A DNA stretch of 5,666 nucleotides from Clostridia bacterium (lineage in GTDB: Bacteria > Bacillota_E > SLMV01 > PUMD01). The stretch covers positions 1 through 5,666 of the forward strand of contig SKXF01000393.1 in the NCBI GenBank assembly GCA_007128555.1, in the 5' to 3' direction. Made by a program: the position numbers and the translations under genes. Within the stretch, counting starts at the first letter, position 1. Each line of letters starts with the position of its first letter. A model generated the notes under the pieces. The model searched no databases and had not been told where the DNA came from. It saw only the letters and a program-made list of their open reading frames with translations. Of the stretch, positions 1-5,646 are shown piece by piece.

Positions 1-77
1 ACGTTATTGGAAATGATCCTCTGGCTGGAAGCACCGGCCAACATACCCGAAGCCGAGGCATAGACACCCCGCAACAT
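1..77 (-). CDS. Flagellar basal-body rod protein, FlgF/FlgG (FlhO/FlhP) family, N-terminal fragment cut by window edge
   Basis: Only the first 25 codons plus two bases are present; the gene runs off the left edge. It opens ATG with translation beginning MLRGVYASASGML and ending QRIISNNV at the edge. This is the N-terminal signature of flagellar rod and hook proteins (SASGM, then SNN-[IV]-AN in the family), which forms the helix that packs in the axial rod or hook. The start is well fixed by a GGAGGTGAT Shine-Dalgarno (90-82) with GGAGG ending 8 nt before ATG. In many Bacillota a flhO-flhP (flgF/flgG-like) pair lies downstream of spoIIID and mbl, so the first member, commonly annotated flgF, is the likeliest identity; FlgG or another rod protein cannot be excluded from 25 residues. 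Its leader carries a c-di-GMP-I riboswitch, which suggests control of motility by that second messenger. Confidence 0.82.
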   Translation of the reverse strand, partial: MLRGVYASASGMLAGASSQRIISNN

Positions 78-155
78 TCCCATCACCTCCCGTCTGAGAT
101 CTCGTCCGATGCAGGCAACGAGAACTCGACAGCATGGGCATGGCCTGGGGTGAGC

Positions 156-180
156 AAAAAAGCGAATACCTTCGGCAACC
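156..180 (-). terminator. Possible riboswitch-controlled intrinsic terminator (P1 3' strand plus T6)
   Basis: Two bases after the 3' strand of the riboswitch closing stem the minus strand has six consecutive Ts (161-156). If P1 forms (251-243 with 174-164), the RNA would show a helix directly followed by a U-tract, the layout of an intrinsic terminator stabilised by ligand. That would make c-di-GMP an OFF signal for the flagellar gene, and the same site could end spoIIID read-through. The P1 helix is A/U-rich and bulged, so it would be weak unless the folded aptamer supports it. No other helix immediately before the T-run is visible. Confidence 0.5.
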
Positions 181-251
181 AGACGTTCCCAATGAGGGAA
201 TCACGGCTTTGCGTCCCCACCTTGCGATGGGTTTGCCCTTATCGAGTATTC
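164..251 (-). promoter_or_regulatory. Cyclic-di-GMP-I (GEMM-I) riboswitch aptamer upstream of the flagellar rod gene
   Basis: Read on the minus strand, the RNA contains AGGGCAAACC (239-230) and GGGACGCAAAGCC (217-205), the two highly conserved core strings of GEMM-I aptamers such as Vc2 of Vibrio cholerae. Between them is a six-pair helix, CCCATC (231-226) with GGTGGG (221-216) including one G-U pair, closed by a GCAA GNRA tetraloop (225-222), as expected for the tetraloop that docks in the other arm. The second arm has TTCCC (200-196) pairing with GGGAA (190-186). The 3' core GGTTGCCGA (180-172) matches the family's GGTTRCCGA. P1 closes with GAATAC+TCG (251-243) pairing to CGA+GTATTC (174-164) around an AG bulge. 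The G equivalent to the guanine-contacting G20 of Vc2 would be about 236, and the partner C one of 175/174. The class is recognised from sequence and structure; ligand and direction of control are inferred. Confidence 0.93.
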
Positions 252-256
252 TCGAT
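241..256 (-). promoter_or_regulatory. Candidate anti-P1 hairpin of the riboswitch expression platform
   Basis: ATCGAGAATACTCGAT on the minus strand is a perfect 6-bp inverted repeat with a 4-nt loop (ATCGAG-AATA-CTCGAT). Its bases 251-243 are exactly the 5' strand of riboswitch P1, so the hairpin and P1 cannot coexist. It is transcribed before the aptamer and could hold the RNA in the ligand-free state. Sequence symmetry is direct; the regulatory role is inference. Confidence 0.5.
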
Positions 257-274
257 GGTCTGACATCGGTTTTG

Positions 275-301
275 TCTATACATTCGACACTCAGGTCGCA
301 A
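275..301 (-). promoter_or_regulatory. Weak candidate sigma-A-like promoter for the riboswitch leader and flagellar gene
   Basis: TTGCGA (301-296; 4 of 6 to TTGACA) and TATAGA (280-275; 5 of 6 to TATAAT) are separated by 15 bp, shorter than the preferred 17. A start near 268 would place the whole riboswitch in the leader. The -35 overlaps the end of spoIIID. Read-through from spoIIID, or another sigma factor, is an alternative. Confidence 0.3.
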
Positions 302-557
302 CTCCTGCATGCCTCTCGGCATATTTTCGACGAGTAGCCTCTCCTCCCCGGATGTGCCGCTCCGCCTTGTTGTGTTCGAGGACACCCCGCACCCTGTCAG
401 CGAGACGCGAATCGATCTGGGGCAGCCTCTCACTGACATCCTTGTGAACCGTGCTCTTGCTGACGTCGAACACATTGGCCGTGTCCCGAACCGTTGAACC
501 AGTCTTGGCAATGTACTGGCTGACTTCCAGAACCCGTCGCCAGATATAGTCTCTCAC
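291..557 (-). CDS. spoIIID: SpoIIID, mother-cell sporulation transcription factor
   Basis: Predicted 88-aa DNA-binding protein that in Bacillus subtilis activates and represses sigma-E-dependent genes in the mother cell. From the chosen GTG the product begins VRDYIWRR and shows the family signature SKSTVHKD (residues 33-40) in the helix-turn-helix (about 23-43), then ERLPQID, and RHIRGGEATRRKY (67-79) with the basic C-terminal region that also contacts DNA in the B. subtilis protein. Length fits the family (about 80-95 aa). GTG at 557 is chosen because family homology starts there and an AGGGGGGG run (571-564) lies 6 nt upstream; a longer reading to a TTG at 650 adds 31 residues with no family resemblance. 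At residue 31 the HTH turn has Asp where B. subtilis has Gly. A sigma-E-like promoter lies just upstream. The gene is followed directly by the riboswitch leader of a flagellar gene; mbl, often next, is absent here. Confidence 0.95.
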   Translation of the reverse strand: MRDYIWRRVLEVSQYIAKTGSTVRDTANVFDVSKSTVHKDVSERLPQIDSRLADRVRGVLEHNKAERHIRGGEATRRKYAERHAGVAT

Positions 558-588
558 CTGAGTCCCCCCCTGCCCGGAATCCGCACTA

Positions 589-618
589 CATGTATATGCA
601 GTGAGGGAACAAACATAC
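589..618 (-). promoter_or_regulatory. Candidate sigma-E-type promoter for spoIIID
   Basis: On the minus strand GTATGTT (618-612) resembles the sigma-E -35 KMATATT at 5 of 7 positions, and TATACATG (596-589) resembles the -10 CATACAHT at 6 of 8, with a 15-bp spacer. A start near 582 gives a short leader before the GTG at 557. In B. subtilis spoIIID is transcribed by sigma-E, which supports the assignment, but the match is by eye. Confidence 0.42.
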
Positions 619-662
619 CCTTCCGGATGCGAACCTTTTGGGGTACTCAATTCATCTTTGCC

Positions 663-1649
663 TCAGTGAGAGATCCGAATCCCCTCCTCTGTCACCACCA
701 GTTCCAGGGGCTCTCCCGCCCGGTCACGGATCTCCAGGTGCAGGTGAGGGGATAGACCCACCTCCTGCGGAGGAGGCTTGCCAATCACCCCGAGAACCTC
801 GCCTCTCGCAACAGCATCTCCCGGTTGGACCTCCGACTCGGCCATGCCCCTGTACACGAAGAACAGGCCCTCCGCCAACACGGTGACCGACACCCCTGAG
901 GCGGCATCGTCTCTGACCTCGTGCACCTGTCCATCGGCAACACTTCGTACGCGGCTGCCGAGCTCGGCCCCAATGTCGACGCCGGGATGAAAGATCCACT
1001 CATTGAGCGTGACGGACCGAATCCACCCGTAGCCGGTGATCACTTCTCCGTGAACGGGGAAGGCGAACGTCCCGCCGGGAAGCTCCGTCGGAAGAACAGG
1101 TAGAGGTTCCTCGTCTTCTGGCTCCTGCTCGTCCTCGCCGGGAGACTCCGCCCCTGGCGCTGGCACATCCTCCTCTGCGGGGCTCTCTGCCTCGTCTTCA
1201 ACGACTGGCTCCGGGGAGGGCTCAATGATCGCCACGGGGATATCGTCTTCCTCCTCCCCCTCCTCCTCTGCAAGGGCCTGTACAACCCGATGACCGATCA
1301 GGGTCAGGCCCAGGGGCGCCCCGTCGGGCCCCCGCAGGCTGAACTCCGTACCTGCAAGAATCATCTGTTGTAGATAATGGGTGACCACATCCAGGCCTGC
1401 AGGAACGACGCCGCCTTCAATGAAACTGCGACCGCCCCCATCGTGGGGCGAAATATCTCCGCTGGGAGCCGTGAGCGCCCACTCGAAGTTCATCTCGGGT
1501 GCCACGGGCTCCGGCACCGGATCCTCGGTTGCCTGGCGCGAAGGGGGACTGGCTGTGAGGGATAAAAATACCAGGGAAAACAGCGCTGCTCCCCACAACA
1601 GGCCCTTTGCGCGTGACGTCCACACGTTGACCACGTTATTGCCTGCCAA
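663..1649 (-). CDS. spoIIQ: SpoIIQ-like membrane-anchored LytM/M23-domain protein
   Basis: Predicted 328-aa membrane-anchored protein. A hydrophobic helix (about residues 15-33) is followed by a region of no recognised family (about 45-125), a very acidic, Pro-rich linker (about 127-187) and a C-terminal LytM/M23 domain (about 195-310). The domain has FHPGVDIG with putative zinc ligands H221 and D225, and HLHLE with H302 and H304. At the position of the usual Y-x-H active-site histidine it has YRG (266-268), recalling YQS in B. subtilis SpoIIQ. In spore formers SpoIIQ is made in the forespore and joins SpoIIIAH of the mother cell to form the trans-septal channel and engulfment ratchet. Placement between spoIID and spoIIID and a sigma-F-like promoter support this role. 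The start is TTG with GGGAG (1663-1659) at 9 nt; a GGAGG lies only 3 nt away, and GTG codons at 1634 and 1625 are alternatives. A general M23 peptidase is the alternative call. Confidence 0.82.
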   Translation of the reverse strand: MAGNNVVNVWTSRAKGLLWGAALFSLVFLSLTASPPSRQATEDPVPEPVAPEMNFEWALTAPSGDISPHDGGGRSFIEGGVVPAGLDVVTHYLQQMILAGTEFSLRGPDGAPLGLTLIGHRVVQALAEEEGEEEDDIPVAIIEPSPEPVVEDEAESPAEEDVPAPGAESPGEDEQEPEDEEPLPVLPTELPGGTFAFPVHGEVITGYGWIRSVTLNEWIFHPGVDIGAELGSRVRSVADGQVHEVRDDAASGVSVTVLAEGLFFVYRGMAESEVQPGDAVARGEVLGVIGKPPPQEVGLSPHLHLEIRDRAGEPLELVVTEEGIRISH

Positions 1650-1712: not shown

Positions 1713-2756
1713 TCACCGATCCGCGACGGTGACCTCCTCGAGGGAGCAAAGGGTTGCACCGGGGTAATAGTGAGTGATGATCTCGCGAAAAGAGTAGCCC
1801 TGCTCTGCCATTCCATCGGCACCGTACTGGGACATTCCGACACCGTGACCGAAACCCCGGACCCAGAACGTGACGCCGTCGGAGTTCTCCTCGATCTCCC
1901 ACCAGGTCGAGGGGAGGTTCAACAGCTGCCTGATGTCCCGGCCCGTGAACTCCCGCCCTCCCACCGTCACCTGGGCGACCCGACCCGTGTCCGTCACGGC
2001 CGTGACCTCCACCGCGGGAATGGCGGGATTCTCCAGGGAAGCCATCAGCAGGGCAGCGCTGACGCCGACCCGCTGGGCCAGCACATCCCAGCTGAACGAG
2101 TGGCGAGTCAGGCTGTAAGGAGAGTGTTCTTCGTAAGGCGATGAAACGCTCAGCAGGTAGGGATAGGGGTTGCCCCAGACGTCGGCGGCATCCTCCGTCT
2201 GACCTCCGGAGGTCGAATGGTAGACGGCCTCGATGAGCTGTCCCTCGTAGGTGACAACGAGTCCCCTCGTCGCCTCCACCGCTTCCTCGATCTTTCCCCG
2301 GTTCAACCAGTAGCCGAGGAAACCCCAGCGATCCCTCATCTGGTCGCTGTCAATCCAGGCCTGGTCGAAATCGGGATTGTCCGAGATGTCTGCATCGGGC
2401 GCAGCTGCCGTACCCGTCCCGCCGTAATCCCGAAGCTTGGCCACAGCATAGGTGCGCGCCAGGACCGACTGTGCCTTGAGTGCTTCGAGTTCAAAGCTGG
2501 CAGGCATCTCCGCCGCCACCACGCCCACCACGTATTCCTCGAGGGAAAGGGTATGGATGTCCTGGGTGCGGCTCACAAAAACATCCACCGTCGGATTCGA
2601 TGGATAGTAGACGTCGCCCGGTTCGGGCGCTGCCTCCTCTTCCTTGAGCCCCGGATCGACCTCGTCGCGGTCGCGCAGACCACTCATCATGGTCCAGGGA
2701 ATGAGTATGACGAGGATCACCAGCAGGGCGGTGAAGGTGACCAGCACGTAGCGCAA
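1713..2756 (-). CDS. spoIID: SpoIID, stage II sporulation peptidoglycan lytic transglycosylase
   Basis: Membrane-anchored 347-aa enzyme that cleaves glycan strands of septal peptidoglycan during engulfment, acting with SpoIIM and SpoIIP in B. subtilis. An N-terminal hydrophobic helix (about 4-24) precedes a charged linker. The SpoIID core shows LEEYVVGVVAAEMP (72-85) with the expected catalytic Glu at 83, then ALKAQSVLARTYA (92-104), QAWID (132-136), YHSTSGGQTE (179-188) and the C-terminal GFGHGVGMSQYGA (301-313). Length matches B. subtilis SpoIID (about 343 aa). The start is TTG; GGAAGAGGGG ends 5 nt before it and no better in-frame start is seen. The gene follows the ATP synthase operon after a 120-nt gap with a hairpin and a candidate sigma-E promoter, and precedes the spoIIQ-like gene by 63 nt. 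murA, often directly upstream of spoIID, is absent here. Confidence 0.96.
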   Translation of the reverse strand: MRYVLVTFTALLVILVILIPWTMMSGLRDRDEVDPGLKEEEAAPEPGDVYYPSNPTVDVFVSRTQDIHTLSLEEYVVGVVAAEMPASFELEALKAQSVLARTYAVAKLRDYGGTGTAAAPDADISDNPDFDQAWIDSDQMRDRWGFLGYWLNRGKIEEAVEATRGLVVTYEGQLIEAVYHSTSGGQTEDAADVWGNPYPYLLSVSSPYEEHSPYSLTRHSFSWDVLAQRVGVSAALLMASLENPAIPAVEVTAVTDTGRVAQVTVGGREFTGRDIRQLLNLPSTWWEIEENSDGVTFWVRGFGHGVGMSQYGADGMAEQGYSFREIITHYYPGATLCSLEEVTVADR

Positions 2757-2876: not shown

Positions 2877-4770
<1,894 letters not shown>

Positions 4771-5646
4771 CTACCGGCTTTTCGCCAGGGATTCGGCGCC
4801 GCTCGCTATTTCCGCAATCTCTCGGGTGATGACCGTCTGCCGGGCCCGGTTGTACTCCCGGGTCAGGTCCTCGATCAAATCCCCTGCATTGTCTGTTGCA
4901 CTCTTCATAGCCGTGACCCGTGCGGCATGCTCGGCAGCCTTGGCCTCGCTCAGAACCCTGAACATACTGTTCTCAATGAAGCGAGGTAGAAGCTCGGTGA
5001 ATATACTCTCCGCCGAGGGTTCGTGCAGGTAGAGGCCGGAGGCGGGTTCCCCTTCTCCGGTGGGCGCCGCCAGGGGCAACAGGCGGAAAACCTCCACCGG
5101 GTGAGAGAACACCGACACAAAACGGGTATAGACCAGCCGGATCTCATCCACCCGCTCGGCTGAATACTCGCGGGTCGCCGTCCGACCCAGCGCACGAGCC
5201 AGCCCCAGATTGGCCTCCTCGCCGATGTTTATGAACTCATCAAAGAGGTCGACATCCCTCCAGCGGAAGTAGTCCCGGCCGCGCCTGCCCACCGTGATCA
5301 GGTCGACCTCGGCTCCCTGCTGCCCAGCGCGCATCTCGCGTTCCGCCCGTTTCAACACGTTGGAGTTGTATCCCCCGCACAGGCCCCGATCGGCACTGAA
5401 GCACATCATCAGGATCCGACGGACCGGTCGCTTCTTCAGCAGCGGTGACTCAAACTCTCTCTCGGCACCACCCTGCACAACGCGCCGGAGGAGCCCCGTG
5501 AGCGTCTCGGAGTAGGGCCGGGCTGCCCGGGCCTGTTGCTGGGTGCGGTACATCTTGGTCCGGGCGACCAGCTCCATTGCCCGGGTGATCTGGCGGGTGT
5601 TGTTGACCGCCCTTATTCTACGATGAATTTCCCTTGGATTGGCCAT
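4771..5646 (-). CDS. atpG: F1Fo ATP synthase gamma subunit
   Basis: The 291-aa gamma subunit forms the rotating central shaft, transmitting c-ring rotation to the alpha/beta hexamer. The N-terminal coiled-coil helix shows REIHRRIRAVNNTRQITRAM (5-24) and MELVART; the Rossmann-like core has SADRGLCGGYNSN (84-96); the C-terminal helix has DNAGDLIEDLTREYNRARQ (252-270) then ITREIAEI and ASGA, all at normal spacing for AtpG. Length is usual (about 285-295). The ATG is supported by an AGGTGA element just upstream. It is the first complete gene at the right edge; atpA would be expected immediately upstream, outside the window. It precedes atpD by 15 nt as part of one operon. Nothing is missing from the key motifs. 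Confidence 0.97.
   Translation of the reverse strand: MANPREIHRRIRAVNNTRQITRAMELVARTKMYRTQQQARAARPYSETLTGLLRRVVQGGAEREFESPLLKKRPVRRILMMCFSADRGLCGGYNSNVLKRAEREMRAGQQGAEVDLITVGRRGRDYFRWRDVDLFDEFINIGEEANLGLARALGRTATREYSAERVDEIRLVYTRFVSVFSHPVEVFRLLPLAAPTGEGEPASGLYLHEPSAESIFTELLPRFIENSMFRVLSEAKAAEHAARVTAMKSATDNAGDLIEDLTREYNRARQTVITREIAEIASGAESLAKSR

Follow-up and report, generated by a model that had tools for sequence, protein, structure and literature searches.

The window analysed here was the whole stretch of 5,666 nucleotides from a Clostridia bacterium. A candidate riboswitch was located between spoIIID and the start of a flagellar gene, and the features of the window were as follows.

1 to 77, minus strand: 5' end of a flagellar basal-body rod gene (flgF/flgG-like, flhO-like), which continues outside the window; read from MLRGVYASASGMLAGASSQRIISNNV and from orthologs.
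78 to 163, minus strand: leader (putative expression platform) between the aptamer and the flagellar start codon; read from sequence and folds.
164 to 251, minus strand: c-di-GMP-I (GEMM-I) aptamer with extended P1; RF03167 64.2 bits, and 71.9 bits with our own model R1, whose training set included the window element.
291 to 590, minus strand: spoIIID, start codon provisional; PF12116 127.2 bits, TIGR02844 128.2 bits (cut-off 111.5).
663 to 1649, minus strand: M23 peptidase gene at the spoIIQ position; PF01551 56 bits, SpoIIQ model NF053738 30.7 bits, far under its cut-off of 250.
1713 to 2756, minus strand: spoIID; TIGR02870 320.7 bits.
2877 to 3314, minus strand: atpC (ATP synthase epsilon); TIGR01216 116.7 bits.
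3307 to 4755, minus strand: atpD; TIGR01039 813.1 bits.
4771 to 5646, minus strand: atpG; TIGR01146 291.1 bits.

A covariance search of the whole window was performed on both strands (cmscan). The best Rfam match was RF03167 (c-di-GMP-I-GGC) at 246-170 of the minus strand, with 64.2 bits and an E value of 6.5e-14. The match covered the full aptamer (model positions 1-80 of 80) and exceeded the gathering score of 59. RF03167 belongs to the same Rfam clan (CL00126) as the c-di-GMP-I family RF01051, and the result was in line with the preliminary description, which had called a c-di-GMP-I riboswitch by eye. Two overlapping matches of the same clan and lower score aside, the only other entry up to an E value of 1 was a microRNA model far below its cut-off (E 0.71). 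The closing stem proposed earlier was also recovered. GAATAC (251-246) and GTATTC (169-164) are able to form a helix that extends P1, and this flanking pair sets 251-164 as the exact interval of the element. The helix that had been described as GNRA-capped was P2, with a GCAA loop. The 77-nt core of the window element was identical in G009 and was conserved across 7 aligned orthologs (6 distinct sequences). In this alignment, the C44 position was C and the bulged G of P3, the putative counterpart of G83 in the C44-G83 interhelical pair, was invariant. Three of the 20 predicted pairs showed changes on both sides with pairing kept; in 4 of the 20, one or two of the ortholog sequences had a broken pair or a gap, and the covariation term was small (-0.28). 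P3 of the window element was short and carried no 11-nt tetraloop receptor, a common part that was not treated as class-defining; its lack may have an affinity cost. At the level of sequence, 251-164 of the minus strand was confirmed as a c-di-GMP-I (GEMM-I) aptamer, a well-known riboswitch class. It is very probably a riboswitch carried by the leader of flhO(-flhP), genes for the flagellar rod.

The flagellar gene starts with ATG at 77-75 behind GGGAGG at 91-86, where a rod gene with a strong ribosome binding site had been described, and runs to the window end. The profile search gave no family match for this piece of 27 codons alone. The identity of the gene rests on orthologs, and those in L002, L144 and L146 scored above the cut-off of TIGR03506 and below that of TIGR02490 (FlgF). 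On the other side of the switch, the gene already named as spoIIID was established at 590-291 of the minus strand by its TIGR02844 score (128.2 bits). Its stop codon (293-291) was 39 nt from P1, and P1 was 86 nt from the flagellar start. In a simple scan of window positions 1-700, in which promoters of the sigma-70 type only were sought, the minus strand showed no terminator-like site and neither strand showed such a promoter. Just 5' of the aptamer, a CCGATGT or CCGATAT string was seen (269-263 of the minus strand in the window, with similar strings in G009 and G002). It resembles what we take to be the SigD -10 element, and inspection by eye revealed no -35 to match it.

SpoIIID was scanned in 562 relatives, and the best 80 loci were used. 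R1 was searched over 82 sources, namely these best 80 loci, L109 (G009) and the window. Clear elements were found in the window, L109, L001 and L002; the window, L001 and L002 belonged to the R1 training set, and the L109 element has the sequence of the window. Both L001 and L002 are metagenome assemblies of a Clostridia bacterium. L022 and L052 gave weak matches (E 0.34 and 0.44), and no element was found at E 1 in the other 76 of the 82 sources. Neighbourhoods were counted with tblastn in 74 of the best 80 loci, which had at least 2.5 kb downstream. In 41 of these 74, mbl was located within 900 nt of spoIIID. A flagellar rod gene was present within 5 kb in 23 of the 74, and 21 of the 23 also had mbl within 900 nt, which upheld the earlier remark that the switch occupies the place of mbl. 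Among these 23 loci, the rod gene occurred without mbl only in L001 and L002, and both carry the riboswitch.

The locus was then compared within the order of G002, sampled as eight genomes. All eight contained c-di-GMP-I elements, and SpoIIID was found in three of them (G001, G002 and G009) by protein and family search. A short element was located directly before flhO in six of the eight. The gene upstream of it was spoIIID in G001, G002 and G009, and atpC in G005, G006 and G007. In the latter genomes (L146, L143 and L144), the locus reads atpC, riboswitch and flhO, and the spoIID, M23 and spoIIID genes of the window are missing from it. These three draft assemblies gave no match to either SpoIIID or SpoIID. 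Since they are drafts, the absence of genes is softer evidence than the locus with atpC directly upstream. The findings suggest a loss of sporulation in G005, G006 and G007. An FlhO-like match was obtained in G010, where none of the listed elements was next to it, and G008 gave no FlhO match at E 1e-25. Strong MreB/Mbl-family genes were present in all eight genomes, on contigs other than that of the flhO element where the latter was present. Most of the genomes had a single strong match of this kind, so mbl may have been lost and not moved.

In the wider class, a model of the 7 orthologs (R2) matched 125 of 151 genomes at E 1e-6. The highest scores were those of the six members of the order (98.8 to 86.9 bits), followed at 79.9 by the next of the matches listed. 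The same 151 genomes were searched with an FlhO query from G023, so that the sampling followed the gene and not the riboswitch. One bias is that an element is also present at the query's own locus (L178). FlhO matches at E 1e-25 were obtained in 88 of the 151 genomes, and the best 30 loci, none from the order of the window, were examined. An R1 element (E 4.2e-8 or better) was present in 20 of these 30, or in 19 of 29 when the locus of the query was excluded. All 20 elements were upstream of flhO and on its strand. Sixteen scored 71.7 bits or more with R1 and four scored 44.5 to 51.0; the four (L201, L202, L196 and L192) have a GC-rich, odd P3. Mbl preceded the element in 19 of the 20 loci, spoIIID was visible in 12 of the 20 stretches, and in L204 (G042) spoIIID was directly before the element, as in the window. 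No R1 element was found in the other 10 of the best 30 loci, and mbl was still upstream in five of these (L179, L190, L203, L205 and L207). The simplest picture is that of an older order spoIIID-mbl-[switch]-flhO-flhP, from which mbl would since have gone in the order of the window. Three genomes within this order would have lost the spore genes from the locus too, with the switch staying beside flhO.

The leader was examined for an expression platform. In the window, a run of six T (161-156) follows shortly 3' of P1, and the Shine-Dalgarno sequence is the GGGAGG at 91-86. The T6 run after the 3' strand of P1 was also seen in G009, and G007 had seven T there, with P1 as a possible terminator stem ahead of the run. 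No clear terminator was found in the window leader. A possible anti-aptamer strand, TCGAGTTCTCG, was located at 129-119. The anti-aptamer duplex hardly beat shuffled sequences, being reached by 24 of 500 shuffles for the window, 244 of 500 for G001 and 124 of 500 for G002. When the leader of G002 was cut just past the start codon, the Shine-Dalgarno was unpaired in the free fold and hidden in the fold with P1 and P2 locked (-78.7 versus -70.8 kcal/mol). G001 behaved like G002 with the same short cut, except that some weak local pairs formed in its free fold (-72.6 versus -63.9 kcal/mol). However, in free folds of both with more coding sequence, the Shine-Dalgarno was mostly paired. The short and long leaders thus conflict, and the translational model hinges on the point at which the RNA is cut. 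In the window leader, the Shine-Dalgarno was paired alike in the free and locked folds (-75.4 versus -70.8 kcal/mol), and G009 likewise showed no difference. A terminator-like hairpin formed in both the free and locked folds of the G006 and G007 leaders. In the wider class, runs of at least five T occurred within 110 nt 3' of the element in 7 of 20 loci, with clear hairpins before them by eye in L199 and L204. A single expression platform common to all orthologs was rejected, since the leaders differ and the folds conflict.

The position beside spoIIID raises a possible coupling of rod synthesis to sporulation, in which transcription would read through from spoIIID and c-di-GMP would gate flhO in sporulating cells. 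The short distance of 39 nt from the spoIIID stop codon to P1 is consistent with this reading, as is the scan of positions 1-700, in which no terminator-like site of the minus strand and no promoter was found, although the scan was limited to promoters of the sigma-70 type. However, the same element is located between atpC and flhO in G005-G007, with no match of SpoIIID or SpoIID there, and in the class mbl precedes it in all but one of the 20 loci with an element. The motility-sporulation link drawn in the preliminary description was not sustained by these two results, and the coupling is unlikely. The element remains beside flhO whether or not mbl and the sporulation genes are present, which speaks against reading the spoIIID neighbour as a functional link. 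Since mbl no longer intervenes, transcription from spoIIID may continue straight into the aptamer. That it does so and that c-di-GMP thereby gates the rod operon in the mother-cell programme, in spore-forming members of the lineage only, is a doubtful proposal that we regard as quite improbable.

The nature of the ligand was assessed from the contact letters. G20, A47 and C92 were read in the window and its relatives (C92 by eye), with numbering after what we take to be the Vc2 sequence. Passages of PMC4744006 give G20, A47 and C92 as the contacts of Vc2 to c-di-GMP, and passages of PMC3764141 give G20, C92, A47 and A48 as key recognition residues. In the ACGCxAA stretch, the window reads ACGCA against ACGCG in the RF03167 consensus, with A at the A47 position. 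The "GGC" in the name of RF03167 denotes, we infer, positions 20, 47 and 92; the label at face value was dropped because position 47 reads A. Related elements were compared in a 24-element set consisting of the RF03167 matches (n = 24) in relatives G001-G004 plus the window, in which L101, a fragment of 26 positions at the end of a contig, was left out and two copies of L001 and L002 were counted once. The type of the P2 loop varied together with the receptor in P3. Among the 18 elements with a GAAA loop, 16 had a UCUAA-type receptor and the other two had UCUAC. A simple pattern search found no UCUAA-type receptor in any of the six with other GNRA loops (the window, L001, L002, L092, L093 and L102). 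The spoIIID-linked elements of L001 and L002 scored 54.0 and 51.6 bits with RF01051, where the remaining 21 of 23 matches scored 61.4 to 88.4, and 61.7 and 58.2 bits with RF03167. The L002 element is labelled RF01051 because 58.2 is below the RF03167 gathering score of 59.

If the element belonged to the GGC-variant class, it would sense some ligand other than c-di-GMP, or recognise c-di-GMP with a changed specificity. RF03167 was the top Rfam family for both the window and L001, the 64.2 bits of the window cleared the gathering cut-off of 59, and the raw bits of L002 also favoured RF03167 (58.2 versus 51.6). However, A and not the consensus G is found at the A47 position in the window, L001, L002 and all 20 flhO-linked elements of the class. 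A short P3 is common to the three flhO-linked elements behind spoIIID, and the better RF03167 fit of this subgroup is probably due to it and not to the letter at position 47. A variant ligand is thus very unlikely, and the ligand of the window element is most likely c-di-GMP. The short P3 without the 11-nt tetraloop receptor might also indicate a decayed aptamer remnant without function. Such decay is difficult to reconcile with a 77-nt core that G009 shares without change and that is conserved across 7 orthologs, with compensated changes in 3 of 20 pairs. In addition, a non-GAAA loop and a missing receptor coincide in all six such elements of the 24, as a matched alternative contact would. 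We consider a remnant extremely unlikely. By its sequence, the element is of an ordinary aptamer class, and its unusual-looking address is explained by the comparison of gene orders.

A functional c-di-GMP riboswitch would agree with its surroundings. The flhO-like gene 3' of the leader is a plausible c-di-GMP target, and proteins with GGDEF domains are present in relatives G001 and G002, the two genomes searched (9 and 14 matches). C-di-GMP-I elements were also found before FlgB-like products, named by eye, in the same order (L089 in G002, L121 in G008, L123 in G009 and L138 in G005). Among the first four relatives, elements preceded pilin-, MotB- and CheW-like products, assigned by eye from translated starts (L083, L096, L090 and L081). 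An element with a GUGA loop was observed before a TasA/camelysin-type matrix protein, by eye, in L102 (G002:C64). According to passages of PMC6200980, the c-di-GMP-I element before Clostridioides difficile flgB (Cdi-1-3) ends transcription upon c-di-GMP binding, and high c-di-GMP lowers flagellar genes. The flgB analogy and the partly conflicting folds lead us to expect an OFF switch, which most likely lowers the flagellar rod gene at high c-di-GMP. Since the folds conflict and the Shine-Dalgarno of the window shows no difference, we infer both the direction and the level of control in the window. The element would bind c-di-GMP, and at high c-di-GMP a closed P1 would free the downstream strand. 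The freed strand might hide the Shine-Dalgarno, as suggested for G001 and G002, or it might let a terminator form, as suggested for some relatives; flhO would be off in both cases. Most simply, the position beside spoIIID would derive from the older spoIIID-mbl-[switch]-flhO order, with mbl lost or moved.

With a c-di-GMP-I switch before flhO in 20 of the 30 sampled FlhO loci of the class, flhO may represent a second flagellar entry point for c-di-GMP beside the known flgB. In the open-licence literature, no paper was found that joins a riboswitch with spoIIID and flagellar genes, with flhO, or with mreB and flagellar genes, and none that names spoIIID, mbl, flhO and flhP together. Compared with known systems, the window element shares the P1/P2/P3 layout and G20, A47 and C92 with RF01051, but its P3 is short and its P2 loop is GCAA, where most elements of the relatives have GAAA. 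It shares the short P3 with RF03167, which gave the best covariance score, above the gathering score, but it has A at the A47 position where the consensus is G. The neighbourhood spoIIID-mbl-flhO-flhP, which we take to be that of Bacillus subtilis, has the same genes in the same order as the lineage of the window, apart from mbl. In contrast to it, the window locus is without mbl, so that spoIIID adjoins the switch, and has a riboswitch before flhO. Cdi-1-3 differs in that the window gene is flhO-like and in a spoIIID neighbourhood, and in that the window element has a short P3 without the usual receptor and no clear terminator. It is similar in that, as described in passages of PMC6200980, an aptamer of the same class precedes a flagellar rod gene, there in the flgB operon of Clostridioides difficile.
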